From Planctomycetaceae bacterium (GTDB lineage Bacteria; Planctomycetota; Planctomycetia; Planctomycetales; Planctomycetaceae): a DNA stretch of 42,064 nt. Location: the NCBI GenBank assembly GCA_021732415.1, contig JAKFVC010000082.1:1-42064 (forward strand). The letters run 5' to 3'. Of this stretch, positions 1 through 42,064 are shown one piece after another (the first letter of the stretch is position 1; every line of letters begins with the position of its first letter). Below the pieces are notes generated by a model. It was not told the origin of the DNA. It made no database searches and saw only the letters and a program-made list of their open reading frames with translations. Position numbers and translations under genes: made by a program.

Positions 1-43
1 CCCCCAACCCCTCTCCCCGGAGTACCAGGGCGAGGGGAGCCAC
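1..43. repeat. Partial intergenic palindromic repeat at window edge
   Basis: The first bases form a C/G-rich element with the arms CCCCTCTCCCCGGAG and AGGGCGAGGGGAGCC, which can fold on itself imperfectly. The last 15 bases of the window (GCTCCCCTCGCCCT) match the reverse complement of its right part, so the family has at least two copies. It lies upstream of tex with no gene to its left in the window. The role is unknown; a dispersed intergenic repeat is the simplest reading. Confidence 0.45.
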
Positions 44-153
44 TGTCGCTGCGCTTCCTTTGAAGGGGATTGGCGATAGACAATGCATACGAGGTTGAAC
101 ACCTCACCCGCTGCGGCAGTTTACCGGCGGCTCAATCAAGGATTGGTTAAGTG

Positions 154-2595
154 ATGGACACACTGACGGCGATCGACTTCGACCGCATCGCAAAGGAATT
201 GAACCTCAACCGCAGCCAGGTGGAAAGCGCCACCACGCTCCTGGACGAGGGCAACACGATTCCCTTCGTGACTCGCTACCGCAAAGAGCGCACCGGGCAC
301 CTTGACGAAGAGCAACTGCGCCTGATCGAACAACGGGTCACCGCGCTGCGACAGCTCAAAGAGCGCGCCCTGACCATCACCCGGCTGATCGAGTCTCAGG
401 GCAAGCTGACCCCCGAACTGCGGCGAGAGATCGAGAACGCTGATTCGACGAAGCGCCTGGAAGATCTGTATCTCCCCTTCCGTCCCAAGAAGCGTTCGCG
501 AGCCAGCATGGCGCGCGACCGAGGTCTGGAACCGTTGGCCGACCGCGTCTGGCAGGGCGACCCGAGTCTCACCAATCTCGAAGCCACCGCGGCCGGCATG
601 GTTGCTCCCGATAAGGAGCTGCCGACCTCTGCGGACGTCCTCCAGGGCGTCGCCGATCTGATTGCCGAACGCATCGGGGATGATGCCGAACTCCGGTCGG
701 CCTGTCGAGAACTAAGCTGGCAGACCGGTAAGCTGACCGTCACGGGTTCCGATGCCGAGAGCGAAAAGGCTCAACCCTATCGCGATTATTTCAACTATCA
801 GGAAGCCATTTCCCGGATGCCTCCGCACCGGATCCTAGCCCTGAATCGTGGCGAGAAGGAGAGCATCCTCCGCGTCAAATTCGTGTGGGACGACGAACGG
901 GCCAGCGGCATCACCGCAGACTTGTTGCGAATCAATCAGCGTCCGCATGGTCCATTCATTCGGGAGTGTGCACAGGATGCGCTGTCACGTCTCATTCATC
1001 CCAGCCTCGACCGAGAAGTCCGCCGCGAGTTGACCGAACGGGCCGAAACGCACGCCGTGCAAGTCTTCGCGAAGAATCTCCGCAATCTCCTCTTACAACC
1101 CCCGCTGCGTGGCAAGCGGGTGCTCGCGATCGATCCCGGCTTCCGCACGGGCTGCAAGGTCGCGGTCCTGGATGAGATTGGAACCTGCCTGGTGACAGAC
1201 GTCGTCTACCTGACAGGCTCGGCCGATAAACGGGTCGCGACGAAACAGAAACTGGTCGAACTGCTGCAACAGCACAACACGCGGTTGATCGTCCTCGGCA
1301 ACGGAACGGCGTGCCGCGAATCGGAGGAGCTGGTCTCCGAAATCATCAGCGAAACCCTCCCCGATCTCCAATACACGATCGTCAACGAGGCCGGCGCCAG
1401 CATTTATTCCACCAGCACAGTCGCACGGGAAGAATTCCCTAATTTCGACGCGACGATCCGCGGCACAATCTCGATTGGCCGCCGTCTGCAGGATCCGCTG
1501 AGCGAATTGGTAAAGATCGAACCGCAGCATATCGGAGTGGGCATGTATCAGCATGATCTCACTCCCAAACTGCTCAAGGAATCGCTCGAATCGGTCGTCG
1601 AGTCCTGCGTCAACTACGTCGGCGTGGACCTCAACACGGCCAGCCCCGCCCTGCTCAGTCGTGTCTCTGGCTTGAATCAGCTCACCGCCCGGCGAGTGGT
1701 CGAATGGCGCGAACGTCACGGACGATTTCAAACTCGCCAGCAAATTAAAGACGTCGCTGGAATCGGCGATGCCACGTTCACCCAGGCTGCGGGATTCCTC
1801 AAGATTACTGGCGGTGACGAGCCGCTAGATCAAACATGGATCCACCCGGAAAGTTATCCGGCAGCCAAACAGATTCTCACCAAACTTCAACTGCGAATCG
1901 CGGACGACGGCTTGCAAATCGATGGGGGGGCAGAGAACACGGCTCGCGAACGTCTCGCCGCATTGAACGTCGACACTCTGGCCACCGAGATCGGCGTCGG
2001 AGTCATCACGCTCCAAGACATTGTCGATGCCCTGGCCCGTCCGGGTCGAGACCCGCGAACCGATCTGCAAGGCCACGTCTTCAAGCAGGGAATTCTCAAA
2101 CTCGAAGACCTGGCCCCCGGTATGGAGGTCCGCGGCACCGTGCTGAATGTCGTCGATTTTGGGGTCTTCGTCGACATCGGTCTGAAGGACAGCGGCCTGG
2201 TGCACATCAGCCAGATGTCGCGCAATTACGTGCGCTCACCGCACGACGTCGCGGCCGTGGGCGACGTGGTCACCGCCTGGGTCTTACAGATCGATTCCGA
2301 ACGCCGCCGCGTCTCCTTGACGATGATCAACCCGGCAATCCCTCAAGAGAAACCTGCTCCCCGCCAGTCGCCTGCCCCGAAGTCCGCGCAATCGGTCGCC
2401 TCACCCGCCAAGCCCACCAGTTCCGAACGCCCCAAAGCGGTGGCCGCGGCTGCTCCGGCCAGCACTCGCCCAGCCCCCGAACGCCAGCGACCCACACAAC
2501 CAGCGGTCCCGCTGTCCGACGACAAGAACGCTGGCCGGGAACCACTTCGTGGTTTCGACGAATTGAAACAAATGTGGCAGCATAAAAAAGGATGA
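154..2595 (+). CDS. tex: Tex family transcription accessory protein (S1 RNA-binding)
   Basis: A cytoplasmic nucleic-acid-binding protein of the Tex/Spt6-like family, which in other bacteria influences transcription and RNA handling. The family's domain order is visible: a helical Tex N-terminal region (about residues 5-190), a YqgF/RNase H-like fold beginning at VLAIDPGFRTGCK (about 325-455), a helix-hairpin-helix region (NTASPALLSRVSG, VAGIGDATF; about 500-565) and an S1 domain (GMEVRGTVLNVVDFGVFVDI; about 655-725). A Pro/Ala-rich tail with no fold I recognise follows, ending in a short FDELKQMWQ segment. The length of about 813 residues is normal for Tex plus a tail. AAGGA at 138-142 could serve either the GTG at 151 (spacing 8) or the ATG at 154; I chose the ATG, which differs by one residue. 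It is transcribed alone, converging on the toxin/antitoxin pair. Confidence 0.96.
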   Translation: MDTLTAIDFDRIAKELNLNRSQVESATTLLDEGNTIPFVTRYRKERTGHLDEEQLRLIEQRVTALRQLKERALTITRLIESQGKLTPELRREIENADSTKRLEDLYLPFRPKKRSRASMARDRGLEPLADRVWQGDPSLTNLEATAAGMVAPDKELPTSADVLQGVADLIAERIGDDAELRSACRELSWQTGKLTVTGSDAESEKAQPYRDYFNYQEAISRMPPHRILALNRGEKESILRVKFVWDDERASGITADLLRINQRPHGPFIRECAQDALSRLIHPSLDREVRRELTERAETHAVQVFAKNLRNLLLQPPLRGKRVLAIDPGFRTGCKVAVLDEIGTCLVTDVVYLTGSADKRVATKQKLVELLQQHNTRLIVLGNGTACRESEELVSEIISETLPDLQYTIVNEAGASIYSTSTVAREEFPNFDATIRGTISIGRRLQDPLSELVKIEPQHIGVGMYQHDLTPKLLKESLESVVESCVNYVGVDLNTASPALLSRVSGLNQLTARRVVEWRERHGRFQTRQQIKDVAGIGDATFTQAAGFLKITGGDEPLDQTWIHPESYPAAKQILTKLQLRIADDGLQIDGGAENTARERLAALNVDTLATEIGVGVITLQDIVDALARPGRDPRTDLQGHVFKQGILKLEDLAPGMEVRGTVLNVVDFGVFVDIGLKDSGLVHISQMSRNYVRSPHDVAAVGDVVTAWVLQIDSERRRVSLTMINPAIPQEKPAPRQSPAPKSAQSVASPAKPTSSERPKAVAAAAPASTRPAPERQRPTQPAVPLSDDKNAGREPLRGFDELKQMWQHKKG

Positions 2596-2668
2596 ACGCT
2601 GCCGTTCGGTCGAGAATGATGGTGACCTGTCCCAGATCTCTCGTCGCCTCCGACTTTTCAACCAGGAA

Positions 2669-3124
2669 TCACGGAAGGTTACCGGCGAGGACATCGACAG
2701 GAGAGTGAGCGGTAAGACCAGGAAAACGCTGAAAGTCGCTCACATTGAATGTTAGAAGCTGCGAAAGCCCATGACGCTGCATCGCTGCAACAAGGCGGGC
2801 ATCATGAGACGTTTTGCCACTGACGGAGTGATCGACGACCAGCGATTGCCAGATAGGATAGATTCCTCGCTCGTCTTTCAGCAGCACAAAGTCCTGAAGC
2901 AAATCCTGGACAGACCGCATTGCTTGAGCCACACTCATCCCAAGGCCATTGACGTTTACCGGACGCGTTGCGACTGACCAGAACTCATAGATGACTTGAG
3001 GCACCACGCAAAGTGTGTTTCCAGCGCGCACCAATTCGATCAGGGCATCCAAAGCCAGCTGATGATGGGGACTCACCGGCTGTGCGCGACGCAACAAGAT
3101 ATTGGTATCGACGAGAATCTTCAT
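2669..3124 (-). CDS. PIN-domain toxin, VapC-like ribonuclease
   Basis: A 151-residue PIN-domain protein, probably the toxin of a type II toxin-antitoxin pair that cleaves RNA in a metal-dependent way. The acidic active-site set is visible: Asp6 in KILVDTNILL, Glu47 in VIYEFWS, Asp108 in KTSHDARLVA and Asp130 in TFNVSDFQRF. The start overlaps the antitoxin stop in an ATGA, the usual translational coupling, with a GGGACG-type ribosome site inside the antitoxin gene. Target RNA cannot be predicted. Substitution of the pair by an inactive relic is unlikely because all four acidic positions are present. Confidence 0.88.
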   Translation of the reverse strand: MKILVDTNILLRRAQPVSPHHQLALDALIELVRAGNTLCVVPQVIYEFWSVATRPVNVNGLGMSVAQAMRSVQDLLQDFVLLKDERGIYPIWQSLVVDHSVSGKTSHDARLVAAMQRHGLSQLLTFNVSDFQRFPGLTAHSPVDVLAGNLP

Positions 3125-3375
3125 TCACGTCCCGCATAAATGGACTCTCGACTATCGTCGATGGCATGATCGAGCCGGGGATGCAGATCCACCCAAGCTT
3201 TCTGGCGCCGGATAAAATCATCCACGCTCGTTGCTGAATCGATATCCAATTCAACTTCCTTCGCGTTGTCAACGACAACTTGCCTGACGAAGCTTGCAAG
3301 GTCGGTCCCGGCGGCAGCCGCCCGTTTTTGCATGACGTTCCCGATTTCGTCGGGTATTTCGATAGACAGGTTCAT
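3121..3375 (-). CDS. Antitoxin of PIN toxin pair
   Basis: An 84-residue protein immediately upstream of, and overlapping by 4 bp with, the PIN toxin. The N-terminus (MNLSIEIPDEIGNVMQKRA) has the short strand followed by helices seen in ribbon-helix-helix antitoxins; the acidic C-terminal half (SVDDFIRRQKAWVDLHP) would wrap the toxin. Function is inferred from size, overlap and partner rather than from a clear family match. The start is well supported by GGAGG six to seven bases upstream (about 3382-3386 on the minus strand). Such antitoxins normally repress their own promoter; I see no clear operator in the 220-bp spacer to ribF. Confidence 0.8.
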   Translation of the reverse strand: MNLSIEIPDEIGNVMQKRAAAAGTDLASFVRQVVVDNAKEVELDIDSATSVDDFIRRQKAWVDLHPRLDHAIDDSRESIYAGRE

Positions 3376-3597
3376 TCATTCCCTCCGGCACTCCATCTTA
3401 TCAATGCGAGCAGTATTGGTCATCAATTATTTCGATTCTGTCCACGTCTACAAAGATGTAATCGAAGCCCACGCCTTAAAACGGCACAAAAATATTGTTA
3501 TTATGCCTTGGTAAGTTGCGGCAGAAATTGACGAACTGCTGGACACCCATATTTTTCCTATTTCGTAACACTGCCGATTTCGTTCCCCTCGCTCCGC

Positions 3598-4533
3598 ATG
3601 AAACTCTTGCACGGCTTTGACGACCCCGCAGCCTATCAAGGAGGCTACGTTTCCATCGGTAATTTCGATGGCGTGCATCGCGGACATCGCACGATGATCG
3701 CCCGGCTGATCGAGCTGGCTCGACGAGACGGCGTGCCGGCCGTCGTCATGACCTTTTCTCCGCATCCGATTGAAATCCTACGGCCTCAACATGCACCCCC
3801 TCCGCTGACGACAATCGAACGCAAAGCCGAATTGCTGGCGGAATGTGGCGTCGATTGTGTCATCGCCTATCCCACCGATCACGCTCTGCTGCAACTGACC
3901 CCCGGCGAATTCTTTCAATCCATCCTCCTGACCAAGCTGCGAGCCCGTGGCATGGTCGAGGGTGAAAACTTCTTCTATGGTCATTACCGCGCCGGAAACG
4001 TCCATACGCTGCTGGCCGCCTGTGAAGCCGCCGGCATGACGTTGGATGTGATCATTCCTGTGCAATTGGGATCGCGCGTGGTGTCATCGTCCGTCATTCG
4101 CCGGCTGGTCGCTGAAGGGGACGTAGCCGAGGCTGCCGAACTGCTGGGATCTCCGTATCAGTTGCGGGGGTTAGTCACCAACGGTGCGGCCCGCGGACGC
4201 ACCATTGGATTTCCGACCGCCAATCTCATGGATGTCGCGACCGAATTCCCGAAGGACGGCGTCTATGCCGGCCGAGTCACATGGCGGGGGCGGCAAGTTG
4301 CTGCCGCCATCAACATCGGCAGCAATCCTACGTTCTCTGAGCATCAGCGGAAATTCGAAGTCCACCTGCTCGATTTTCAGGAGGATTTGTACGGTCAAAT
4401 CTTGAGTGTCGATTTCATCGCCCGCCTGCGTGATACCCGGCCTTTTGCTTCGATCGAAGAACTGATCGCCCAGTTGCACAAAGATGTTGCCCAGGTTCGC
4501 AGTCTGACGACCCCATCAGCCGCAGGGCGTTAG
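3598..4533 (+). CDS. ribF: Bifunctional riboflavin kinase / FAD synthetase
   Basis: A cytoplasmic enzyme that phosphorylates riboflavin to FMN and adenylates FMN to FAD. The N-terminal FAD synthetase domain shows the nucleotidyltransferase signature GNFDGVHRGH at residues 21-30, and the C-terminal riboflavin kinase domain shows RGRTIGFPTAN (about 199-209) and INIGSNPTF. The length, 311 residues, is typical. No strong ribosome site precedes the ATG and no FMN riboswitch is visible in the spacer. The stop codon TAG (4531-4533) sits inside the left arm of a palindromic repeat, so the last residues (about SAAGR) are encoded by the repeat. In many bacteria ribF neighbours the oligoribonuclease gene nrnA, as it does here. 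Confidence 0.96.
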   Translation: MKLLHGFDDPAAYQGGYVSIGNFDGVHRGHRTMIARLIELARRDGVPAVVMTFSPHPIEILRPQHAPPPLTTIERKAELLAECGVDCVIAYPTDHALLQLTPGEFFQSILLTKLRARGMVEGENFFYGHYRAGNVHTLLAACEAAGMTLDVIIPVQLGSRVVSSSVIRRLVAEGDVAEAAELLGSPYQLRGLVTNGAARGRTIGFPTANLMDVATEFPKDGVYAGRVTWRGRQVAAAINIGSNPTFSEHQRKFEVHLLDFQEDLYGQILSVDFIARLRDTRPFASIEELIAQLHKDVAQVRSLTTPSAAGR

Positions 4534-4599
4534 CCCCCGGTTCAGACAACAATCGACTCGAATTTCGATCCGAACCGGACGCTAACGCGTTCCGGCTGA
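4516..4599. repeat. Palindromic repeat overlapping the ribF 3' end
   Basis: Two 28-bp arms, 4516-4543 and 4572-4599, are inverted copies agreeing at about 23 of 28 positions, with a 28-nt loop. The shared cores are TCAGCCG, GCGTTAGC and CGGTTC. The left arm carries the ribF stop codon within GCGTTAGC. The structure could act as a terminator hairpin for ribF, although it lacks a T tract. Confidence 0.75.
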
Positions 4600-4939
4600 T
4601 GAAAGTCTACAACCGCACCACGCGTCACAACCGTCAGCGGCCACCGCCTATATCCCGCGAGACGCAACTCTTCGACAAGGTCGTTAGCCGCGTCAGAGTC
4701 CCTGTCAGCCGCGAAGACTGCAGAAGATTTTCTGTCTTCTCAGGCCGGATCAAGGCGACCTCGCTTACGTTGCCGCCTGCACTACGCTACTCTATAGCGT
4801 CCGAGCGCAAATCAATCCGGTTCTGCTAGACGTCGCGACATCCATTCGGTGAAGCATTGAGAGCGGTCTTGTCGGTGTTTTTGGAGTCTCGTGGTTCGTA
4901 CATCGAAAAATCACACATAGAAATTCGGACACCAGCACG
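4600..4939. other. Spacer without recognisable gene
   Basis: The 340 bases between the ribF repeat and the nrnA-like gene hold no convincing reading frame; the longest open stretch (4599-4829, plus strand) begins inside the repeat and has no family resemblance. The promoter of the nrnA-like gene presumably lies here, but I see no motif that decides it. Confidence 0.5.
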
Positions 4940-5950
4940 ATGAGTCCCGACTGGAACGTATTCTCAGAATTGATCGCTCCCTGTCAGCGCATCGTCATCA
5001 CCAGCCACGTCCGCCCCGATGCCGACGCCATCGGCTCCGAAATTGGCCTGTGCGGTTTTCTCGAGCAGATCGGTAAGACGGTCCGCATCGTCAACCCTTC
5101 GGCGACTCCCAAAAAGCTCGCCTTTCTCGATCCCACGAATCGGATCCAGCACTACTCGGCCAGCAGCGACGAGGCCATGATTCTGGACACCGACGCCCAC
5201 ATCATTGTGGACACCAGCGCCTGGGGACAACTCGCGGATGTCGGCAAGACTTTCAAGAAGTCGCACGCCGTCAAGATTGTCATCGATCATCATGTCAGCT
5301 CCGATGACCTGGGAGCGACCGTCTTCAAAGACGTGAAGGCCGAAGCCAGCGGCACGCTGATCTATCGCCTGGGCCAGGTCTTGGGATCCAAGCTGGATGC
5401 GGACATCGCCACGGCCCTGTTCGCCGCCATCGCTACCGACACCGGCTGGTTCCGCTTCTCATCAACGACCAGCGAGACCTATCAGATCGCCAGTGCCTTA
5501 ATGGCCGCCGGTGTTCGCCCGGCGTTGCTCCACGAACAGCTCTATCAAAACTACAGCCTGGGTCGGTTGAAGTTGATCTCACGGCTTCTCAACCGGGTTG
5601 AGATTGAATGTGACGGACACTTGGCACATACCTACGTGCTGGTCAGCGACTACGGCGAAACCGTATCAGAACCGGCGGACACCGAAGACCTGGTCAACGA
5701 GTGCCTGGGGATCAAGGGGGTCCAAGGCGCGGTGATCTTCGTCGAACAAGCCAATCACACCATCAAAGCCAGCTTCCGCAGCCGTTCGGCTCTGGATGTG
5801 GCCGCAGTCGCCGAGCAATTCAAAGGGGGCGGCCACAAGCAAGCCGCCGGAGCCGTGCTACCAGGCCCGATCGCCGATGCTCGCGCGATCGTCATCCAAG
5901 CGCTAACCAAAGCGATCCGCGACCTAGAGCCGGCGCAGCCGACTCCGTAG
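4940..5950 (+). CDS. DHH-family phosphoesterase (NrnA-like oligoribonuclease / pAp phosphatase)
   Basis: A 336-residue DHH/DHHA1 phosphoesterase. Family members of this size (NrnA) degrade short oligoribonucleotides and may dephosphorylate pAp in the cytoplasm using two metal ions. The sequence shows RPDADAIGSE (about 25-34), the DHH motif at 116-118 in VIDHHVSSDD, TDTGWFRFS (about 166-174), and the DHHA1 substrate-binding loop FKGGGHKQAAGA near 295-306. The ribosome site is weak. The TAG stop lies in the GTAG that begins the following palindromic repeat. Adjacent ribF gives the context seen in many genomes. The exact substrate (nanoRNA, pAp or cyclic-dinucleotide products) cannot be settled from sequence. 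Confidence 0.92.
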   Translation: MSPDWNVFSELIAPCQRIVITSHVRPDADAIGSEIGLCGFLEQIGKTVRIVNPSATPKKLAFLDPTNRIQHYSASSDEAMILDTDAHIIVDTSAWGQLADVGKTFKKSHAVKIVIDHHVSSDDLGATVFKDVKAEASGTLIYRLGQVLGSKLDADIATALFAAIATDTGWFRFSSTTSETYQIASALMAAGVRPALLHEQLYQNYSLGRLKLISRLLNRVEIECDGHLAHTYVLVSDYGETVSEPADTEDLVNECLGIKGVQGAVIFVEQANHTIKASFRSRSALDVAAVAEQFKGGGHKQAAGAVLPGPIADARAIVIQALTKAIRDLEPAQPTP

Positions 5951-6020
5951 CCCGACTCTCCGAGTCGGGTGCATTCGACGTCGCAAACACCCGACTCAGA
6001 GAGTCGGGCGACGACACTAC
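5947..6020. terminator. Paired palindromes between convergent genes
   Basis: Two copies of the CCCGACTC-nnn-GAGTCGGG palindrome (5951-5969 and 5990-6008) lie in the 66 bp between the converging nrnA-like and aldo/keto reductase genes. Each is a perfect 8-bp stem with a 3-nt loop, and the two together form a larger inverted repeat. They could act as a bidirectional terminator. The GTAG at the left edge supplies the nrnA-like stop. Related copies occur at 7185, 13206, 13578 and 27515. Confidence 0.72.
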
Positions 6021-7051: not shown

Positions 7052-7145
7052 CGAGTCATGCTCCGCAATCAAATCATTGAACGACCCGGCCCGCAGTGAC
7101 GCGATTATATCGGTCCCGAGTCTCAGATTTGAAGGAGCAGCGTAT

Positions 7146-7172
7146 CGTGGGACGGGTCTCCAGGCCCGTCCG
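7146..7172 (+). repeat. 27-bp palindromic repeat, family A copy 1
   Basis: First of six identical 27-bp units containing GACGGGTCTCCAGGCCCGTC, with a 7-bp GGACGGG/CCCGTCC stem and 8-nt loop. It lies upstream of the aldo/keto reductase. With copy 2 in opposite orientation at 7558 it brackets the small gene 7250-7528. Confidence 0.85.
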
Positions 7173-7180
7173 ACCAACCT

Positions 7181-7242
7181 GTAGCCCGACTCTCCGAGTC
7201 GGGGGCTTCGTCGTTGAAATACTCCCGACCCGGAGAGTCAGG
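7181..7242. repeat. Palindromic repeat, family B (GTAGCCCGACTC)
   Basis: A perfect copy of the GTAGCCCGACTC palindrome (7181-7203) is followed by a degenerate inverted partner (about 7224-7242, CCCGACCCGGAGAGTCAGG). The pair sits at the 3' end of the minus-strand gene 7250-7528 and may serve as its terminator. Confidence 0.7.
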
Positions 7243-7249
7243 CGACAGG

Positions 7250-7528
7250 TCAAGCATTCAACCACTGCGATGCCTGCACACCGAAGTCCTCCTTAGCCGC
7301 CTGTTCCGCCGCCTCGATCGATTGGTGCCAAGTATCACCCGAGAACGTGCCATCCTGAGACGAGTAACAAAGCAGATACCCGCCACCATCGTGTTGAATG
7401 TCGATGTCCAGCAGGACATCTCGGACTGGTGTTGGTAAAGGAATAGCGGCGCCAGGCGGCAGCCAGCCCGAGTGCGGTTCGCCACCCAAGCGGAATGGGA
7501 AACCCACGATCCACTTCACCCGGTCCAT
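7250..7528 (-). CDS. Hypothetical 92-residue protein
   Basis: I do not recognise a family. The ATG at 7528 has AGGCAGGAA directly upstream, so I prefer it to the start at 7603, which would translate the family A repeat. The protein begins MDRVKWIVGFPFRLGGEP and contains an aromatic core (DIDIQHDGGGYLLCYSS, GTFSGDTWHQSIEAAEQAA) suggestive of a small alpha/beta domain; no signal peptide or membrane segment is evident. It is bracketed by two inverted copies of the identical 27-bp repeat (7146-7172 and 7558-7584). That is compatible with a small mobile cassette, but equally with chance, since these repeats occupy most spacers here. Confidence 0.65.
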   Translation of the reverse strand: MDRVKWIVGFPFRLGGEPHSGWLPPGAAIPLPTPVRDVLLDIDIQHDGGGYLLCYSSQDGTFSGDTWHQSIEAAEQAAKEDFGVQASQWLNA

Positions 7529-7557
7529 TTTTCCTGCCTGACGCGTTTTCAGACGGC

Positions 7558-7584
7558 CGGACGGGCCTGGAGACCCGTCCCACG
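7558..7584 (-). repeat. 27-bp palindromic repeat, family A copy 2
   Basis: Identical to copy 1 but in inverted orientation. It lies six bases beyond the TAG stop of the secreted protein gene at 7590 and could act as a hairpin terminator for it. Confidence 0.85.
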
Positions 7585-8786: not shown

Positions 8787-8839
8787 ATCCGTCACGCCGT
8801 CCGGTTGAAATCGCGTTCCTGACCCCCATGTTACGAGCA

Positions 8840-32466: not shown

Positions 32467-32484
32467 TTGCTCGTGGGATAGTAG

Positions 32485-33639: not shown

Positions 33640-33673
33640 GGAGGATACCTAATTTGAGGGAAATTGCCGTGAT

Positions 33674-33883: not shown

Positions 33884-33893
33884 ACACAATTCT

Positions 33894-36800
33894 CTACGGT
33901 GCCGTCGTCGCGGGCTGGGTCTTGGCGATTTCCTTGAAATACTGCCGGATCAATTCGCCATATTCGCTGTTCGGCTTCTTTTGTGCCGCTTGCAGAATCT
34001 CGGTTTGCAGGGTGCCAGGCAGCTCACCCCATTTGCGTCCGGCGAGGCGTTTCTTGAGCCGCGCGAGGTTCGCCGTGTCAACGTCGGCTTCGGCCGCGGA
34101 GCCTGGTTTCCCGTTCCCACCCTTTTCGCTCGGGACGCCTTGGCCATTTCCGCCGGGAGTTCCTTCCTCAGGCTCACCCGCCTGCGGCTTGCCGCCCGAG
34201 CCCTTCGCTTGCCACTGGGCATTGGCCTGTCTCAACGCCGCCGCGGCGCGCTGCAGACGCTGGGCTGCAGATTGCATCGCGGTCTGGGACGGCTGGCCCT
34301 CTTGACCATTCGACTCAGACGACGGACTAGATTGACCTTGTGCGGAGCCAGGCTGACCAGAGCCGCCCGCTTTTCCAGAAGCCGATGCCGGCGCTGAGCC
34401 TTGTCCCGAACTCGATTTCCCACCGGAAGCTTCTCCGGGCGACCCAGGAGCACCACCAGACTTGGCCTCACCAAACTTGGCTTCGCCGGACTTGGCTTCA
34501 CCAGACTTGGCTTCGCCGGACTTGGATTCACCAGACTTGGCTTCACCGGACTTGGCTTCGCCGGACTTGGCTTCACCAGACTTGGCTTCACCGGACTTGG
34601 CTTCACCGGACTTGGCTTCACCGGACTTGGCTTCGCCAGACTTGGCTTCGCCAGACTTGGATTCACCGGACTTGGACTCACCCATCGGTGAACGCGGGGT
34701 CTCGTTGCCTGATTCGGGTTGTGAGGTCTGGGCCGTCGGTGGAGGAGTGGCCGGTGGAGTCGACAAGGCCTCTTGCAATTGTTTTACCGCGTCGGCGACT
34801 TGCCCTGCGGCTTCCTTAGGGACCGCTCCTTCAGGGGCATTTTCAGGGGCGCTTTCCGAGGTGTTTTTCTGTGGATCGGCTGATTGTTCGCCGTCCGACG
34901 GCATGGGCCTCTGTCCGGCGGGATTCTCCTTCGACGAGGGTTGTTTGTTCGCGCCCTGTGGATTGGCCATCGGCCCCGGTTCCTGGGCCAACTGCTGCAA
35001 GGCCTCGGCGGCTTTCTGGCCGGCCGCTGCGGAGCGTTCCAGATTCCCCTGTTCGAGTTCGCGCTGCGCTTCTTCCATGGCCGCCTGCGCCTGTTGGTTT
35101 TGCGCCGCGTTGGGTCCTGGATCGGAAGGCGACTTGGCCGACTCCGGGGCGCTGCGAGGTGTCGTACTCTTTTTGGATGCCGGATCCTTCGCGGCCGGGG
35201 CCTCTTTCATTCGTTCGTTGGCCTGCTGAATTTCTTCGTTCAATTGACGCAGGGTTTCCGCCAGTTTTTTTTGTTTCTCCTGCTGTTGAGACAAATCCTG
35301 AGCCTGCTGGGCCTGTGCCACTTCTTGCTGGAGATCACGAGCTTCCTGGGCCAACCTGGCGGCCTGCTGGGCGTTGGATTGGGGACGCTCTGCCGCACCT
35401 TCAGCCTTGGCACCCTCAGGTTTCCCACCCTCAGGTTTAGCGCCCTCCGCATTGGCTCCCTCTGGCTTCGATTGCGGCGCAGAATTCTGTTCGGGAGATT
35501 TTTCTTCCCCAGCCTTTGGCTGACCTTCCGGCGCATCAGCCCCCTTCTCAGGCGAAGCATTCTTGGCTTCGGGTTTGTTTAGACCATCCAGCTTTTCGGT
35601 CTTTTCGCCCGGCATAGGCTGGGGCTTCTCTGGCGAAGTCTCCTCAGTCCCTTCTGCCCCTTTCTTCTCCGGCGGCTTCAATTCATCCGCCAGCTTCTGC
35701 AGAGCCTCGGCCGCAGCCTGCTGAGCCTCCGCATTTTCTTTCAGCAACCGCTCCAATTCCTGTTCCTTTTCCTCCGGAGTGGCCTTCGATTCCGGATCGG
35801 GCTTGGTCGATTTGTCGGCCAGTTCCTGCTGCTTTTCGGCGGCGTCATTCAGTGCGGATTCCGCGGCCTGTTGTTGCTGTTCTGCTGCGGCCTGTTCCGG
35901 GGTGAGTTTCTTCAACTCCTCTTTCGCGGCATTCAATTGTTCGGCGGCCTCTTCCTGCTTCTCTTTCGCTGGAGCCGCTTTTTCCTGCGCCGCTTCCTGA
36001 GCTGCCTTCGCTGCCGCGGCCTGTTGATCGGCTAACTTTTGAGCCTGTTCCGCGGTCGACTGGTTGGCCTCCTGCAGCTTTTTCTCGAGTTCGTCCAGTT
36101 GCTTGGCGAGTCGTTCCTCTTCTTTGGCGGCCTCACCGAGATTGCCTGCCCGCAGTTCTTCGATGGCTTTTTCCAGTTCAGCGGGATCGATTGGCTGCAC
36201 ACCCGGCGGACGTTTCTCGGCCACTTGCTCGTTCAGTTTTTCAATCTGTTTCTGCAACTCAGCCTGACGTTCGGCCAGGGCCTCATTGTCGCGAGCACTC
36301 TTCTCAGCGGCGTCCCGCAATTCTTCGGCGAGCGCCTGCTGCGGCTGGGCCAATTGTTCGGCTCGCTGAGTCAACTGGGCCAGTTGTTCAAGCGAATTCT
36401 GTCTCGCCGCCTGTTGCAGTTCGGGCTGCTTTTGCAGGAGTTCCGCGGCCTTTTGAGTCAGCTCCTTTTGCTGTGCGACAAGCTGATTGGCTTCGGCCTT
36501 CTGTAACTGCTCGCGAGCCTGTCGCTCCTGTTCGGTTTCCTGCAGCGGGACCGGTTCACGCTGTTTCTGATCGAGCGTTTTCAGCCGCTGCGCCAATTGT
36601 TCGGCATTGGCCGCCAGCCGGTTCAGTTCGAGGAGATCCTGCTCCAGCTTCGCAATCCTGTCGAATTTCTCGGTGAGCGCGTCCAGTTTTTTGTCAGCCT
36701 GAGCGAGTTGCCCCTCAGCCGCTTCCAGTTTTTCGGTTCGCTCGGCGCCGGCAGCCTGCTCGGCGGCACTGAGCGCCGCCTGCGCCTGTTGGAATTCGGC

Positions 36801-38711
36801 GGCCGCCAATTGTTGAGCTTGCTGGGCGAGGTTCGCAAACAGCGGATGGTTTTCAAACGCGGCAGCCAGTTGCTCCAGGCGAGCTTGCAGTTTCGCCTGC
36901 ACATCGGCCGCTTTTTCGATCTCACGCTGTAACTCTCTGGCGGCCGCAGGATCGTCTTGGGGCAGGTCGGCCGCCTCGGTTTGCAACTGTTGGGCTTGCT
37001 TCTGTTGAGCGGTGACGTCGTCGTGCAATTGCGCCAAGAACTGCTGCATCTGTTGTTGATCGAGTGCCAACTGCTGCGTGCCGGGGGGCTTGGCTTTCGC
37101 ATCGATGCGGATCAGTCGCTGTTCCGACCAGGTCTCGTTCGGACCCGGCTCGGGGCGTTCATCCGCAGCCCGCACGCGGTAGCTGACGATCTCGCCATTC
37201 TTCAGCTGCAGGTCGGTCAAGTTGAGATCGAATTGATGTTGAATCTGGGGCCTTCCCAGCTCCTTCTGTTCGCACTTCAGAATGCCCTTGCGAGTCGCAT
37301 CAATTTCATAGTGCAATTCCAGCGCACCAATCCCGACATCATCCGTGGCGTCGATTTTGACCGGAACCACATCGCTGGCCTGAGCCACTTCCGACTCATG
37401 GTTCCCCGAAACGGTCAACGTGGGAGCCACATCCGGGGTCACGATCAACTGCCGGGTGCCGTCGGTGTCGTTGGTCAGGCCGTGTTCATCACGGACCACC
37501 AGACGAAATGCCCCACCCTGCTCGGGAGTGGATTCCCATGTCGCTGACAGTCGATCGGCTGATAGTTTAAAGGGAATCGCGGGCGGACCTGCCGGTTCGG
37601 CGATCGCCTGTGCGTCCTGTTCGGGAGCCTGCGGCGCACCTTCCACAGGTTTGGAAGTTAATCCTTGCTCGACTTGCCATTGCCACTCGGCCGCTTGGAG
37701 CGGCTTGTTAAACGTCAACTGCCAATTGAGGCGGCTGCGTTCGAGAACCGTGATTTCTCCAGCCGCACCGTCCAGCAGTTTTGCCGGTTGGCCAGTGTAG
37801 GCGGGCGGCTGGATTTTGACCTTCAAGCCGGTAATCGCGGGCGCTTCGACGACCTGAATCCGGTACTGGCGCGAGCGATTCCCGCCTCCAGACAAGTCAT
37901 ACTGAAAACCGTGCATCACATGCGGAATCGTGGTCGAATAGAGACCGGTGGAGGCATCGTAATCCACGCGCCGCGAATCCGATTCACCTTGCTCGTTCAC
38001 CCAGTTGAGTTCCGCAATCGCCGGAAAGTCGCCGGGCGTCCCTTTCGGATGGGCTGCCAGGGTCACATCACTGCCACGGACGACGACTCGATCTCCCCGC
38101 TCGACTTCGAACCAGAAACTGGTCACGCGGTCGAGGTTTTGCCAGGGGGTCAAGAAGCGCGTCATCAACAGGCGGTAGTTGGAAGGGACCAGCAGGGGCA
38201 GCAGCAACAGCGTCCACGCCAGTAATCCCCCCAGTGCCATCCGATGCGCCGGACTCGACGAAACGGAGTCACAAAAATCGAGCGGCGCGACGTTCTGCAG
38301 GGCCTGCTTGGCGGACAGTTCGCGCATCAGTGCCGATCCCCGTTCGCTTTCGGGAATCGTCGTGTCGTACAGCTCAATGCACGAAACCAGACTTTCCTTC
38401 AATTCGGGGTGAGCTCGTTCGACGACGGCGGCCAGATCCACGACGGAACGCTGGCGTCGCCACGGCCGCCAGATCATCGCATACGCACTGACGAGAGTGG
38501 CGAGGATCGTCGCGGCCAGCAAACCAATCCGTACCAACAGAGGCAGCTCAAGAGTGATATCAGCGAGCAATCCCAGTCCGAGAGCGATCGCGGAGATGGC
38601 CAAAGTCCAGCCGCACCCGCGGACGATGTCGAGTTGTCGGACGTACGATTCCAATTCCGCGAGCTTCGACCACAGCCCCTCGGGAAGCGACGTCAAGCGT
38701 TTGCGAGCCAT
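33894..38711 (-). CDS. DUF4175-like membrane protein with giant coiled coil
   Basis: A 1605-residue protein. Two membrane segments near 34-80 ([37 protein letters not shown]) and a third near 158-178 ([18 protein letters not shown]) anchor an N-terminal region resembling DUF4175 proteins; about 190-530 looks like extracytoplasmic beta-sandwich domains ([40 protein letters not shown]). From about 545 to 1260 the sequence is almost continuous Ala/Gln/Glu/Leu coiled coil. A Pro/Gly/Lys-rich part follows, including the 15-unit SGEAK tandem repeat (about 1344-1417), and a C-terminal helix ([20 protein letters not shown]). In planctomycetes such proteins often sit near MoxR/VWA and cyclase-fold genes; here a cyclase-fold gene follows. 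The function is unknown; an envelope-spanning role is inferred. Confidence 0.85.
34461..34682 (-). repeat. 15-bp coding tandem repeat ([10 protein letters not shown])
   Basis: About fifteen tandem 15-bp units encode the pentapeptide SGEAK, three units reading GESK and one FGEAK. Unit-to-unit identity at DNA level is very high, differing mainly at the wobble position of Gly and at Ala/Ser codons, so the array is recent and likely variable in length. It lies inside the disordered C-terminal part of the DUF4175-like protein. Near-identical DNA also leaves the opposite strand open, which is a shadow. Confidence 0.9.
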
Positions 38712-38794
38712 GCCAACATCTCCCGTGAGGGGCGACCGAATGCAACATCTTGATATTAGGATCGCATTAAGCTCTATTTAACTCAGTGACCTGT

Positions 38795-38998
38795 CTTCAG
38801 CCCCAACGGGGCGAACTAGGCCAGCCCAGGGCATCGCCCTGGGTACAGTTCCCGTTTACGCTCTGCCAGCCCTGAAGGGGCGTACTAGCCCAGTCACAAT
38901 CCAAGCTAGTGCGCCCCTTCAGGGCTTAGAATACCATTTTGCAAGCTAACCCAGGGCGATGCCCTGGGCTGGCCTAGTTCGCCCCCGTTGGGGCTAAG
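38795..38998. repeat. Nested palindromic repeat, family G
   Basis: An outer pair (about 38795-38845 and 38949-38998) carries AGCCCCAACGGGGCGAACTA and CAGCCCAGGGCATCGCCCTG in inverted order; an inner pair (about 38868-38889 and 38905-38926) carries AGCCCTGAAGGGGCG with CTAGC ends. Each arm is also a local hairpin, giving three levels of pairing in about 200 bp. It fills the 298-bp gap between the Cys-rich lipoprotein gene and the DUF4175-like gene, both on the minus strand. Confidence 0.85.
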
Positions 38999-39009
38999 AA
39001 AACATCAGC

Positions 39010-39513
39010 TTATGCAGACTTCTTCTTCGGCGGCGCGTCGCCCAACTTCTTACCGGCCGTCTTCATCTTCGCTTCAAGTTTCTTACGCACTTTTTCCCAA
39101 GGTTCATCCATCAGCGGAATGTGACATCCGCCCTTCCCCTTGCATTCATTCTCAGCGGCATTCGCACCGCAGCCGCCCTGCCCCTTGCATTCATTTTCAC
39201 CGCCGCAGGCGTGCTCTTTGACGGTCGCGCACTCACTGAGGCCAGCGCAGTCGTTCTTGCCTTTGGATTCCCCGCCGCCCTGGCCTTTGCACTCGTTCAA
39301 GCCACGGCACAGATGCCAATCTTGCTTTTCGACGGCCACGGCGTCCGTGCTGGCCAGGGCGTCAGGTGCCGGTGCTGCAGGTGCTGCGGTGGGAATAGCG
39401 GGAGGGACTGCGGGCTTCGTTTCGCAACCGGCCAGACTGCCAGCCATGACTCCACCCATCGCGGCCATCGACAAGCGGTGAAAGTCGCGGCGATTCAATT
39501 CCTGGGAACTCAT
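39010..39513 (-). CDS. Cys-rich Tat lipoprotein resembling BufA2 bufferin metallophore precursor
   Basis: A 167-residue protein with a twin-arginine motif (NRRDFHRLS, residues 7-15) and a lipobox ending at Cys30 (AGSLAGC), so it should be exported folded and lipid-anchored. After a Pro/Ala linker (31-60) come nine cysteines at 69, 75, 89, 95, 103, 109, 115, 124 and 130 in repeated units: NECKGQGG, GKNDCAGLSEC, HACGGENECKGQGGC and NECKGKGGC. This pattern matches what I recall of BufA2-type bufferins, whose cysteines are modified to bind copper. Their usual modifying partner (DUF692/BufB) and BufC are not in the window. The Lys-rich C-terminus (KLEAKMKTAGKKLGD) is extra. An unmodified metal-binding lipoprotein is the alternative. 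Confidence 0.72.
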   Translation of the reverse strand: MSSQELNRRDFHRLSMAAMGGVMAGSLAGCETKPAVPPAIPTAAPAAPAPDALASTDAVAVEKQDWHLCRGLNECKGQGGGESKGKNDCAGLSECATVKEHACGGENECKGQGGCGANAAENECKGKGGCHIPLMDEPWEKVRKKLEAKMKTAGKKLGDAPPKKKSA

Positions 39514-39570
39514 TCGTATTTCCTTAAGTCGCTGTGGCTTATGTGGTTGCAGGGTTGTGGTGATCGGATT

Positions 39571-39619
39571 GTAGGTCAGGCTGTGCCTGACAACTGGCGT
39601 CAGGCACAGCCTGACCTAC
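39571..39619. repeat. Perfect 21-bp inverted repeat, family F copy 2
   Basis: Arms 39571-39591 and 39599-39619 pair perfectly (core GTAGGTCAGGCTGTGCCTGA) around a 7-nt loop. The arms equal those of copy 1 at 32485, while the loops differ in length and sequence, so the arms are what is conserved. It lies upstream of the Cys-rich lipoprotein gene. Confidence 0.85.
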
Positions 39620-39746
39620 ATGACTGGCAATATCCAGAAACGTCAAATTCGTGCGGAATGGACGGATCAACGTCTCTGAAATGAAACACCGCTCTCTATT
39701 AAACGTATCGGTCTAGCGACAGTCTGTCCAGAGGAGGGAGTGAGGG

Positions 39747-39850
39747 GAATGACTAATGACTCAATGCCTAATGTCTAAAAGGATGAAAATCCGGGTGTGA
39801 TCCCGAATGTTGACCACGGTCACTGTCATCTTTTTAGACATTAGTCATTT
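39747..39850. repeat. Palindromic repeat, family E copy 2
   Basis: The left arm (from 39747: GGAATGACTAATGACT, then CCTAATGTCTAAAAGGATGA) and the right arm (about 39825-39850: TCATCTTTTTAGACATTAG, TCATTT) are inverted. The TGA stop of the minus-strand dehydrogenase gene is the TGA of AATGACTAATGTC in the right arm. With the family F hairpin it fills the 331-bp gap; nothing else is visible there. Confidence 0.82.
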
Positions 39851-40909
39851 CCTCAGCAGCTCCAAAATCGCATCTCCCACTTCATTGCACCGTGACGTTC
39901 CTCCCAAGTCGGGCGTACGCGGCCCACCGCTTTTCAGCAAGTCGGCGACGGCCTTGTGCAGTGCCTGCGCGGCCGGTTCCAGATGGAGGTGCTCCAGCAT
40001 CATGGCTGCAGACAGAATGGCGGCCAATGGATTGGCGATCCCCTTGCCGGCGATGTCGGGGGCCGAGCCGTGGACCGGTTCGAACATGCTGGGATGGGTG
40101 CGAGTGGGGTCGATGTTGCCGCTTGCGGCCAGACCCATGCTGCCGACGACGATTGCTCCCAGGTCGGTCAGGATATCGCCGAAGAGATTACTGGCGACGA
40201 CCACATCGAACGATTCCGGTCTCCGGATGAATTCCATCGCGGCGCGGTCGATCAGCAACGATTCGGTTTCGATCCCGGGAAATTCCTTGGCGATCCGAGT
40301 GAAGCATTCGTCCCACAGCACCATGCCATAGCCCTGCGCGTTGCTCTTCGTAATGGAAGCGACCTTTTTCCGTGGTCGCTGCACGGCCATTTCGAAGGCG
40401 GCGCGGATGATTCGTTCGCACCCGCGACGGGTAAAGACGGCCGTCTGCAGGGCGACCTCTTCGGGGAAGGTCTGGTAGATCCGGCCCCCCGAGTTCACGT
40501 ATTCGCCTTCGGTATTCTCACGAAACACGACGAGATCAATCGAACCGGCCGGCTTGTCGCGGAGTGGGCTTTGGACTCCCTCATACAGGTATGAAGGCCG
40601 CAGGCAGACATATTGATCAAACCGCCGGCGGATCGGCAGCAACAGCCCGTTCAGCGTGATGTGGTCCTGAACTTTGGGATGCCCGACCGCCCCCAGCAGG
40701 ATCGAATCAAACTTGGCCAGTTGATCGAGATAATCGACCGGCGCCATCCGAGAATGCTGGAAATAGTAGTCGGTCCCCCACGGGAAATAGGTCCATGTGA
40801 GGGAGGCCTTAACCCGGGGTAAAACGGCCTCGACGGCCCGGACGGCTTCCCGCGTGACTTCGGGGCCAATGCCGTCTCCGGCCAATACCGCGATTTGAAG
40901 GGTCCGCAT
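39845..40909 (-). CDS. Isopropylmalate dehydrogenase family enzyme, tartrate/D-malate dehydrogenase-like
   Basis: A 354-residue NAD-dependent beta-decarboxylating dehydrogenase. The family signatures AVLAGDGIGPEV (7-18), VVFRENTEGEYVNSGG, NLFGDILTDLGAIVVGSMG and HGSAPDIAGKGIANP are all present. Blocks such as TDYYFQHSRMAPVDYLDQL, ILLGAVGHPKVQDHITLNG and LPIRRRFDQYVCLRP follow the tartrate dehydrogenase / D-malate dehydrogenase (TtuC/DmlA) pattern rather than that of LeuB, so I expect D-malate or tartrate as substrate. LeuB-type activity cannot be excluded, and no leu genes lie nearby. An AGGAG/AAGG site precedes the ATG at some distance. The stop codon lies in a family E repeat. Confidence 0.87.
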   Translation of the reverse strand: MRTLQIAVLAGDGIGPEVTREAVRAVEAVLPRVKASLTWTYFPWGTDYYFQHSRMAPVDYLDQLAKFDSILLGAVGHPKVQDHITLNGLLLPIRRRFDQYVCLRPSYLYEGVQSPLRDKPAGSIDLVVFRENTEGEYVNSGGRIYQTFPEEVALQTAVFTRRGCERIIRAAFEMAVQRPRKKVASITKSNAQGYGMVLWDECFTRIAKEFPGIETESLLIDRAAMEFIRRPESFDVVVASNLFGDILTDLGAIVVGSMGLAASGNIDPTRTHPSMFEPVHGSAPDIAGKGIANPLAAILSAAMMLEHLHLEPAAQALHKAVADLLKSGGPRTPDLGGTSRCNEVGDAILELLRK

Positions 40910-41324
40910 GTTTCGCCCCGCCTTTCTCCTGGATGTGTATCAACAGCGCGTATTCTAAGCGAATCGTCCCCAGATTTGGACTGCGGTGACTAACGAATCA
41001 AGTCAGGCGATCCCGGCGGGGTAAGCCTCGGGGTTCTTCTTCGTGGCCGACGCTGCCAGATTCGGGGACACAGACGCTGGCAGCGTCTGCCACGGGGGCC
41101 GGACCCTTTCGCCTGCGCGGTTCCTGTTGTACATCGTCGAATGGATGACAACTGACCAAAAACTCAAAACCAAAAACCAAGGACGAATCGAACATTCATC
41201 ATTTCTAAATCGGCCACAATTACCAACACGCCACGTCTGAGTTATGATCTAATTCACCTGTTGACCGAATTGTGGCGGTCGCGGGCTCACGGCATCAGAG
41301 AGAATTCAAAAAGGAACTTCGGCC
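40910..41324. other. Divergent upstream region with one repeat
   Basis: The 415 bp between the dehydrogenase (minus) and the small lipoprotein (plus) hold no convincing gene. A CGACGCTGCCA ... CAGACGCTGGCAGCGTCTGC palindrome lies at 41042-41094. Promoters of both genes should be here; I cannot place them. Confidence 0.5.
41042..41094. repeat. Palindromic repeat, family M copy 2
   Basis: CGTGGCCGACGCTGCCA at the left pairs with the TGGCAGCGTCTGCCACG right arm, and the right part contains its own CAGACGCTG/CAGCGTCTG hairpin. It is related to the perfect hairpin at 8766-8786. Confidence 0.7.
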
Positions 41325-41990
41325 ATGCTGCGCAATCTGGGGCTTGGGTGTTGTGTGTTGCTGTTGACGGTGGCTGTGGGCTGCGAAGAGTTGGACCCGA
41401 ACAAGAAGGCCCGGCCGGTGTTGACTCCACCCGGAATCGCACCGATTGGGATGGATGCCTCCGATGGTGGCCGGGCTGCCCCGCCGGCCGAGGCTCCCGT
41501 GGCCGCCCCGCCCGTCGCGGCAGCGCCTGTTGCGGCGCCGCCCCCCGGTGGTGTTCCTGTGGCCGTGTCCCCCGTCGCCAATCCAACGGTCAATGCTCCT
41601 GGTAATGACAGTAAGGGCATCATCGGCAAGACCGACGGCCGAGTGGTCGATGTCAAAAAGGCGCTGGTGGAAAATCCCAATCTGAAGGTCGTGGAAAACA
41701 AGACGGGCGGCGACGACATTCTGTCCTTCGTCGGGTCGGCCTATGTGGTGGCTCGTTCGCAAGCCAGCATGCTGGGTTTCCAGGCGTGGCTCAAGCAGCA
41801 CAAGATCGTCGAAGAACGCAATCCGACCTATGACGAATTCATCCAGGCGATGAAGGAAAACGGCGTCCGATTCAGCGCTCTTTATCCTTGGCAGATGTAT
41901 GGATACGACGCGCAAGCGGGGAAAATGGTCATTTTGGAAGACGAAGTCGTGAAGGCGGAAAAGCACAAGGCCGCCGGGCTCGCTCCCTAG
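41325..41990 (+). CDS. Small lipoprotein with Pro/Ala-rich linker
   Basis: A 221-residue exported lipoprotein: the signal sequence ends in a lipobox with Cys20 (LLLTVAVGC). About 75 residues rich in Pro, Ala, Val and Gly form an extended linker (VAAPPVAAAPVAAPPPGGVP), then a globular C-terminal domain (about 100-221; DILSFVGSAYVVARSQASML, YPWQMYGYDAQAGKMVILED) that I do not recognise. AAGGA lies nine bases before the ATG. The linker would carry the domain across part of the cell wall; the function is unknown. Confidence 0.82.
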   Translation: MLRNLGLGCCVLLLTVAVGCEELDPNKKARPVLTPPGIAPIGMDASDGGRAAPPAEAPVAAPPVAAAPVAAPPPGGVPVAVSPVANPTVNAPGNDSKGIIGKTDGRVVDVKKALVENPNLKVVENKTGGDDILSFVGSAYVVARSQASMLGFQAWLKQHKIVEERNPTYDEFIQAMKENGVRFSALYPWQMYGYDAQAGKMVILEDEVVKAEKHKAAGLAP

Positions 41991-42049
41991 AGCATTGGTG
42001 CCTGCGCAATCGACGTGATCGCGGAAAACGTTGGAAATATAGTAAAACT

Positions 42050-42064
42050 TGCTCCCCTCGCCCT
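42050..42064 (+). repeat. Start of the window-edge repeat
   Basis: The last 15 bases (GCTCCCCTCGCCCT) match the inverted right part of the element at 1-43 and presumably continue outside the window. They lie about 60 bases after the lipoprotein stop. Confidence 0.4.

Follow-up and report, generated by a model that had tools for sequence, protein, structure and literature searches.

Insertion sequences of the IS200/IS605 family lack terminal inverted repeats and possess subterminal hairpins only. For some of the tyrosine transposases associated with repetitive extragenic palindromes (REPs), known as RAYTs, recognition of hairpin arms in single-stranded DNA and movement of arm pairs have been established, and RAYT and REPIN populations are described as combining a stable parent with fast-changing copies. 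REPtrons and TIRtrons are described in the available part of Di Nocera et al. (PMC3733652), where genes and repeats of this kind are said to abound in R. baltica. Subclass 1.2 of the Y1 transposases, mostly from Cyanobacteria and Bacteroidetes, bears the REP entry "no" in the portion of Quentin et al. (2018; PMC6006769) at hand. Four-helix-bundle open reading frames (ORFs) have been described in 23S rRNA intervening sequences, which have inverted repeats at their boundaries and are excised by RNase III (PMC4990558, in excerpt), and GxxExxY has been listed as a gene beside a reverse transcriptase (PMC8934634, in excerpt). Here we analyze a stretch of 42,064 nt from a Planctomycetaceae bacterium (contig C66, bases 1-42064; referred to here as the window), which belongs to a 9.87-Mb draft genome of 350 contigs with 98.3% completeness and whose intergenic spacers hold palindromes of many families. 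We consider it probable that two superposed systems of one architecture occupy these spacers, one based on Y1 genes of the RAYT/TIRYT type and the other on iterated-word arms around GxxExxY and four-helix-bundle genes.

In both systems, a gene-bearing parent with inverted arms would be accompanied by many gene-less palindromes with the same arms. For 10 window families we traced such a parent, that is, a gene-bearing copy between the same arms in inverted orientation (8 in the same genome, those of families C and E in the sister species G003), and one shuffle per arm yielded no matches. The original prediction had proposed non-autonomous families moved by RAYTs or an unknown system; the families are indeed dispersed and five of them have Y1 parents, but families C, D, E, H, and I pair with GxxExxY or four-helix-bundle genes, and RAYTs account for only half of the traced families. 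Mobilization of the gene-less families in trans is what their anatomy and turnover suggest.

The palindromes themselves are far more numerous than expected by chance. We found 38 inverted-repeat pairs in the window (arm length, ≥11 nt; arms within 150 bp), of which the 25 longest were detailed. A stricter search, in which 20 dinucleotide shuffles averaged 0.45 elements, returned 13 elements from the window, all of them in spacers, although it missed three elements of the 38-pair search (4514-4601, 5946-6013, and 24136-24230); at a threshold of ≥30 bits, there were 12 elements in the window versus none in dinucleotide shuffles. According to an approximate gene list, an inverted repeat is present in 16 of the 21 spacers longer than 30 bp, far above the level in shuffles, and in 18 of the 21 if solitary arms and small elements (8757-8867 and 18077-18122) are counted, in line with the earlier claim that almost every spacer contains one. 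Neither palindrome nor arm was seen in the spacers 2595-2669, 3124-3598, and 22254-22761. Elements reside in convergent, co-directional, and divergent spacers, as had been stated, and the figure of at least 15 families was about right, since 14 can be named (A to K, the 13307-13544 family, O, and P) in addition to a contig-end repeat. A Pfam scan of 24 window ORFs reported no Y1, GxxExxY, or four-helix-bundle gene. No Rfam family was detected in the window at gathering scores.

The arms are dispersed throughout the genome. Of 16 arm strings, 15 recur above Markov expectation in a 400-kb genome sample, though several exceed it by no more than 1 or 2 copies; a single family H string had no exact recurrence in this sample, yet H-type arms do recur. 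In the sample plus the window, 265 12-mers (one of them a run of N) reached ≥7 copies, versus a single one in a second-order Markov control. In the whole genome, a D arm has 101 exact matches, an F arm (a 21-mer) has 73, and a 14-mer of family C has 151, whereas each reversed-pattern control gave 0. Among the matches listed, exact D pairs were all oriented head to head, 45 to 72 bp from start to start. The statement that copies have arms but not loops in common is partly right: 5 of 14 D elements possess the same 16-nt loop, the loops of the others being mostly unique, and families can be nested within loops: family I lies in the loop of a family A pair (33672-33884), and family O lies inside the 13307-13544 family, which in turn lies inside a family B pair (13205-13595).

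The first system is readily recognizable. A PF01797 profile search identified 13 Y1_Tnp genes in the genome, all of them between inverted arms of 18 to 107 nt (the shortest at L007 and L008), and five of these arm sets are those of window families, so that the suggested search for RAYT genes between arms of the window families succeeds. In three same-genus genomes, 15 of 24 Y1 loci had inverted arms at E ≤ 0.01; L152 had them weakly, and some of the nine misses were near contig ends. The parents are L013 for family A, L012 for family B, L002 for family G, L009 for family K, and L011 for the 13307-13544 family, and their arms had 32, 31, 5, 4, and 6 gene-less matches, respectively, in 442 kb, where those of L004, L006, and L007 had none. 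The Y---Q--HH signature, which marks TnpA subclass 1.2, is present in four genes (L001, L002, L003, and L005), and L004 has a Y---Q--RH variant; the arms of the former four recur in the sample with 2, 5, 4, and 15 matches, respectively, in stretches without a listed Y1 gene. Families B and F begin with GTAG at the stem end, and family A begins with GTATCGTGGG instead. Families A, B, G, and K and the 13307-13544 family are the known RAYT/TIRYT system, of unusual breadth. In the present genome, the Y1 transposase would recognize hairpin arms in single-stranded DNA and move arm pairs.

Within the window, family A comprises a pair at 7142-7584 (arms 7142-7172 and 7558-7584, with a 100% match to the arms of L013) that holds a family B palindrome in its loop, the pair at 33672-33884 (absent from G002 and with a degenerate right arm in G003), and solitary arms on the minus strand at 8839-8867 and 18827-18861, each a 100% match to an L013 arm. 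Family B, with L012 as its parent, is represented by a GTAG-type palindrome at 5946-6013, by the palindrome in the A loop (7177-7250), by the outer pair at 13205-13595 (arms 13205-13232 and 13578-13595), which encloses two further families and whose left arm matches the L012 type, and by a solitary arm matching the parent on the minus strand at 27514-27538. In the palindrome at 13307-13544, both 46- to 47-nt arms are 96% identical to those of the two-domain Y1 gene L011. The double palindrome of family G at 38794-38999 matches the arms of L002, of the Y---Q--HH type, at 94 to 95% and is absent in G002 and G003, and the family K palindrome at 26230-26326 has arm matches of 97% and 94% to L009 and is absent in G003.

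Three observations on the Y1 genes may be added. L007 and L008 are near-identical neighbors at C1:49482 and C1:52274, 2.8 kb apart, with a 100-N run a few hundred bases before L007, and they represent either a recent duplication or an assembly artifact. The divergent Y1 genes L151 (G002) and L157 (G003) have the arms AGGTGAGCCGGGCGGCG and AGGCGAGCGTCCGGCG, which have 8 and 9 matches in our 442 kb, yet no such arms are found at any of the 13 Y1 genes of this genome. Finally, L011 (C231, ORF 1069-1884) and L154 (G001, ORF 823-1818) seem to contain two complementary half Y1 domains in one chain, with the tyrosine part in the first (Pfam Y1 positions 40 to 121 matched in L011) and the HUH part in the second (positions 4 to 68 in L154). 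Such a chain might amount to a pseudo-dimer on its own, with its one active site split; the structure model of L011, with a predicted local distance difference test score (pLDDT) of 50.5, is too poor to confirm this idea.

The second system consists of arms built from iterated words, with word lengths, as read off the sequences, of 9 bp in family C, 8 bp in D, 7 bp in E, 10 bp in H, and 8 bp in I. Families D and H have GxxExxY parents, and families C, E, and I have Avd-like four-helix-bundle parents. All seven GxxExxY genes (PF13366) of the genome belong to TIGR04256. Iterated inverted arms flank five of them (L277, L278, L279, L280, and L283) on either side; L281 has a palindrome on just one side, and L282, truncated at a contig end, has a D arm on its one readable side; the arms of L278 are those of family H. 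The only PF05635 four-helix-bundle gene found in the genome, L284, lies between family I arms. In G003, family E brackets the four-helix-bundle gene L346 and family C brackets L349, a four-helix-bundle-suffix gene (TIGR04258, E = 7.2e-25). Among the gene-less copies in the window, family D palindromes of iterated CGCAAAGG words occur at 24136-24230 (100% match to the arm beside L282) and at 31726-31827 (same parent), and the family H palindrome of CACTAATCT and CGCTAATCT words at 27375-27497 matches the L278 arms at 100% and 94%. Family I is represented by AGTGTGAG octamers at 33718-33828, with L284 as the parent, and family E by AATGACT and AATGTCT heptamers at 25144-25234 (parent L346) and by a palindrome at 39745-39852 with one arm at ≥30 bits. 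Family C, made of CCCATAAGT nonamers, is found at 12410-12489 (parent L349), and copies with arm matches to this parent are found at 16216-16316 and as a solitary arm on the minus strand at 18077-18122.

We assessed this pairing of arms and genes across the phylum. In 59 genomes, the present one included, there were 84 GxxExxY matches, of which 61 were examined (7 from this genome, 29 from the phylum, and 25 held-out full-length loci), the other 23 being fragments; of 136 four-helix-bundle matches, 45 were examined (1 from this genome, 29 from the phylum, and 15 held-out loci from four genomes). The held-out loci came mostly from genomes that had already been sampled. Best inverted arms of ≥34 bits within 600 bp were present at 14 of 34 GxxExxY loci (2 of 36 being skipped at contig ends) and 9 of 30 four-helix-bundle loci, compared with 1 of 398 random segments of this genome, and at 7 of 25 and 6 of 15 of the held-out loci, respectively. 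The word common to the GxxExxY arms is CRCNRAK. A triple of this word on either side was found at 23/29 GxxExxY loci of the phylum, 3/7 of this genome, 1/5 of the same genus, and 3/10 on plasmid or viral records. The corresponding numbers for four-helix-bundle genes were 1/29 in the phylum, 0/9 in this genome or the genus, and 0/8 on viral contigs, and those for the controls were 0/37 at Y1 loci, 18/778 in random segments, and 2/105 in distal segments. A looser, post hoc criterion, an inverted double word across the gene, was satisfied by 37 of 61 GxxExxY loci (4/7 in this genome, 19/29 in the phylum, and 14/25 held out) versus 1 of 44 four-helix-bundle loci (1/29 and 0/15), 0/37 Y1 loci, 1/778 random segments of this genome, and 0/92 distal segments; among the GxxExxY loci that lacked it were the six most divergent held-out ones. 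Neither triples nor inverted doubles of the GxxExxY-type word were thus present at any of the 37 Y1 loci in four genomes. GxxExxY arms mostly carry CRCNRAK every 8 to 10 bp, and four-helix-bundle arms mostly consist of 7- to 8-bp words (9 bp in family C, with its suffix-type parent).

Similar loci exist outside the phylum. All 8 four-helix-bundle loci on viral contigs had arms of ≥34 bits, several of which are similar to each other and not independent, and so did 5 of 10 plasmid loci (cyanobacterial and Azospirillum) fetched from 30 records with a match. As side observations, the four-helix-bundle genes L416, L419, L420, and L422 on plasmid records lie between cas6 and cas4, between cas10 and a Cmr3-family gene, and between ribonucleotide reductase subunits, and the GxxExxY gene L369 lies between fabD and fabG in Sphingomonas. 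Plasmids and viral contigs were rejected as the main carriers of GxxExxY, with 8 loci in 72,556 plasmid records (using one query protein) and 2 viral loci; 4 of the 8 plasmid loci had arms recognizable by eye, and the copies L371 to L374 had weak arms or none. The D word itself is widespread. Scanning the contigs of other genomes (257 Gb) for D-type arms with 22 fixed bases revealed at least 119 stretches at no fewer than 80 loci, at a chance expectation of ∼0.03 matches. Among the matches listed, these fall into about eleven phyla according to record titles, many of which denote metagenome bins, so that single assignments may be wrong. They include Planctomycetota, Verrucomicrobiota, Lentisphaerae, Cyanobacteria, Bacteroidota, Acidobacteriota, Spirochaetes (Treponema), KSB1, Hydrogenedentota, Proteobacteria (alpha, gamma, and Mariprofundus), and deltaproteobacterial groups including Geomonas, with Nostoc, Calothrix, Flavobacterium, Sphingomonas, and Geomonas represented by isolates. 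An inverted D partner lay within 200 bp at 32 of the 80 loci listed, and at 3 of them (L160, L174, and L177, from Nostoc, Spartobacteria, and an alphaproteobacterium) a GxxExxY gene lies between D arms or palindromes.

A Y1 parent of family D was considered and dropped: the exact D pairs (100 of 101 places) enclosed no gene-sized loop, a mismatch scan of 30 loci found none, and D was placed with GxxExxY. The same idea was rejected for family F, all 73 exact places of which lack a gene-sized loop and for which a 30-locus mismatch scan also found none, so that F stays an orphan.

Gene-less copies appear to turn over rapidly between sister species. Of ten window palindromes whose two flanks could be aligned with one or more of the sister species, seven (both D elements, H, K, G, and both F elements) had no counterpart, the sister spacer being short or holding other sequence, and the closest sister match to their arms had 5 to 9 mismatches in 14 to 18 nt. 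Both D palindromes are absent in G003, and opposite the second one G002 has another inverted repeat; the H palindrome is absent in both G002 and G003. The one element plainly common to G003 is the E element at 25144, in diverged form, and opposite the other E palindrome G002 has a related heptamer palindrome. The L277-type GxxExxY parent, in turn, is found at one orthologous locus in four species, where its arms carry the word CACAGAT in G000 (6/6) and CACGGAT in G001 (5/5), G002 (7/8), and G003 (6/8); the gene copy in G003 is broken into two pieces, one of them with a stop. Gene-less copies would be mobilized in trans with fast turnover, and a parent gene can apparently persist at one locus.

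The properties of the two proteins suggest how the second system might operate. In GxxExxY, residues D74, E84, K86, and Q98 are invariant in all eight aligned sequences. Its structure model (pLDDT, 91.8) has as its best structural match SSO0001 (4ic1; Z score of 9.1, root mean square deviation [rmsd] of 3.8, 97 aligned residues), which we take to be a Cas4. Its match to the Holliday resolvase Hjc (1gef) has a Z score of 6.8, an rmsd of 3.4, and 85 aligned residues, and a Z score below 8 may mean merely a common arrangement; a profile comparison with PDB sequences gave no match up to E = 1. Both the modeled fold and the D, ExK, and Q residues are those of a predicted PD-(D/E)XK nuclease-fold protein, and the simplest reading of this model would be a nuclease that recognizes the iterated words of the stem and cleaves hairpin or cruciform structures. 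We know of no catalytic site in the four-helix-bundle protein. Our profile of this family matched XCC0516, a member with a solved structure. Profile comparison relates these proteins to Avd, a kinship also noted in the available part of PMC10053308, and this kinship, together with that to the rRNA intervening-sequence ORFs, suggests nucleic-acid binding without catalysis. A protein of the second system may thus bind its own iterated words along a hairpin or cruciform stem. GxxExxY might then cut the stem base, and replication or repair might place a copy of the hairpin at another site; the four-helix-bundle protein might serve as a scaffold on nucleic acid and bring in a nuclease or polymerase of the host. 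Judged from these sequences, the second system seems to be an undescribed class without a transposase that comprises about half of the traced families. We found no paper that pairs PDDEXK_3 with inverted repeats, in a search that left most subscription journals outside, and the literature matches to long word strings were, by title, not bacterial repeat studies.

Several results weigh against the two-system explanation. We saw neither a transposition event nor a target-site duplication or clean empty site; the sister spacers are too diverged. The double word was chosen post hoc. CRCNRAK was defined after part of the data had been seen, and a prediction was therefore written down before unseen loci were fetched, namely, that more than 60% of held-out GxxExxY loci would have the triple word. 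It failed, with 10 of 25 (and 0 of 15 four-helix-bundle loci), and the strict triple was discarded as a general rule. The six most divergent held-out GxxExxY loci (L394 to L399) and many weak four-helix-bundle matches had no arms. The parents of families C and E were seen only in G003, and no parent gene was found for families F, J, O, and P. In Cylindrospermum (L191, 1460-1980), D-type arms surround a KGK-domain gene (PF08872) and not GxxExxY.

This last locus fits the main rival explanation, in which GxxExxY and four-helix-bundle genes are mere cargo: the palindromes would be selfish, RNA-level elements of the intervening-sequence type, which RNase III would render harmless in transcripts by cleaving their stems, and would spread by host recombination, replication slippage, or an unidentified enzyme, without being moved by the two proteins. 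A KGK gene can evidently occupy the space between D arms, and genes of the second system separate partners of an operon, both on cyanobacterial plasmids and, in Sphingomonas, at fabD and fabG; at such places, processing of the transcript would keep the damage small. Four-helix-bundle ORFs are, moreover, known from RNase III-excised 23S rRNA intervening sequences, as far as these are covered in the accessible text of PMC4990558. However, a passenger role would not require two unrelated families of proteins with a separate word grammar for each, the putative catalytic residues are invariant in the eight aligned GxxExxY proteins, and the words in one parent copy have changed in concert. We therefore regard this explanation as unlikely. 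Much more improbable is a mechanism in which RAYT/Y1 transposases move every family (C, D, E, H, and I among them), in keeping with the main reading of the original prediction; the Y1 genes of these five would then have been lost or would be absent from the draft. A Y1 parent does exist for five window families, and genes in repeats may be lost from an assembly of 350 contigs with 98.3% completeness, but five iterated families have a non-Y1 parent, none of the 37 Y1 loci carries the GxxExxY-type word, and 3 of the 80 D-word loci listed, which were not searched for Y1, have GxxExxY between the arms. That the palindromes are ordinary intrinsic terminators or regulatory hairpins of independent origin is scarcely credible, since, despite being intergenic stem-loops, one of which (in family F) precedes a T run, they have arms that are dispersed rather than unique (73 to 151 exact copies for the three counted) and that bracket genes, the same spacer holds different palindromes in sister species, and 16 terminator-like sites were found versus 19.0 expected at 23000-42000, the part scanned, for which terminators were rejected as a general explanation.

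The remaining elements of the window have no traced parent. Family F comprises GTAG-type REP pairs at 32485-32563 and 39570-39620, both absent in G002 and G003. Family J is a palindrome at 4514-4601, and family O is a palindrome at 13389-13465, nested in 13307-13544, with one further arm pair in the sample. Family P includes an element, CGTGGCGGACGCTGCCAGCG, at 8757-8786, whose 12-mers occur 8 to 11 times in the 442-kb sample plus the window, and a palindrome at 41041-41097. The window is ∼85% coding by the approximate gene list, and its genes include DUF7133 and SASA genes in the Pfam scan, which, like the genome size, suggest a planctomycete. Positions 1-55 and 42051-42064 are members of another repeat, present in 8 to 10 copies in the sample; these are the two contig ends, and the assembly probably broke there.

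Having preferred two superposed systems for this genome, we put forward more tentatively a wider proposal, which seems possible to us but is not one we would yet hold as probable: that iterated-word palindromes are pan-bacterial mobile elements without a conventional transposase, mobilized by GxxExxY (CRCNRAK, period of 8 to 10 bp) or by an Avd-like four-helix-bundle protein (period of mostly 7 to 8 bp), with the gene-less palindromes as non-autonomous copies. If true, this would explain how 23S rRNA intervening sequences originated, and it would account both for the heptameric repeats known from cyanobacteria, Xanthomonas, and Beggiatoaceae and for the D-type repeats in about eleven phyla. 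In the literature consulted, as far as its text was available, iterated intergenic repeats and 23S rRNA intervening sequences have been treated piecemeal and separately, with no driver named. Linking the repeats to two small, widely annotated, and functionally blank families would make their origin testable by simple biochemistry. Many genes annotated as GxxExxY or "four helix bundle" may then mark mobile elements rather than housekeeping functions. One genome could host a dozen competing spacer parasites that are swapped between sister species.

Compared with known systems, the Y1 elements described here differ from IS200/IS605 in having inverted arms of 18 to 107 nt. They resemble RAYT/REP (REPtron and REPIN) and TIRYT/TIRtron systems in the Y1 gene between inverted arms, the dispersed gene-less arm pairs, the presence of several families per genome, and the head-to-head pairs, to all of which families A, B, G, and K and the 13307-13544 family conform. 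Measured against subclass 1.2 as it appears in the available part of PMC6006769, they are distinguished by five such genes with long double arms, one of which, L002, has gene-less copies, including one in the window. The iterated-word elements share with transposons and miniature inverted-repeat transposable elements (MITEs) the gene-less copies that have the ends of a gene-bearing copy, but their parents encode no known transposase. Like the 23S rRNA intervening sequences with S23 ORFs (PMC4990558, in excerpt), they can contain a PF05635 or TIGR02436 protein inside inverted-repeat ends (here at L284, L346, and L349); in contrast to these, they reside in protein-gene spacers, have iterated-word arms and many gene-less copies, and match no Rfam family in the window. 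Iterated 7-mers in intergenic DNA are also known from Xanthomonas (GGGAATC) and Nostoc, as heptameric repeats (PMC4692102), and from Beggiatoaceae, as TAACTGA repeats (PMC4679880). According to the accessible text of PMC4692102, those of Xanthomonas are often paired as inverted repeats and are generally not found with mobile elements, and the available parts of both papers name no gene partner, unlike the arms described here. The Xanthomonas word, GGGAATC, is precisely the one that makes up the arms of L407, a four-helix-bundle gene of the held-out set.

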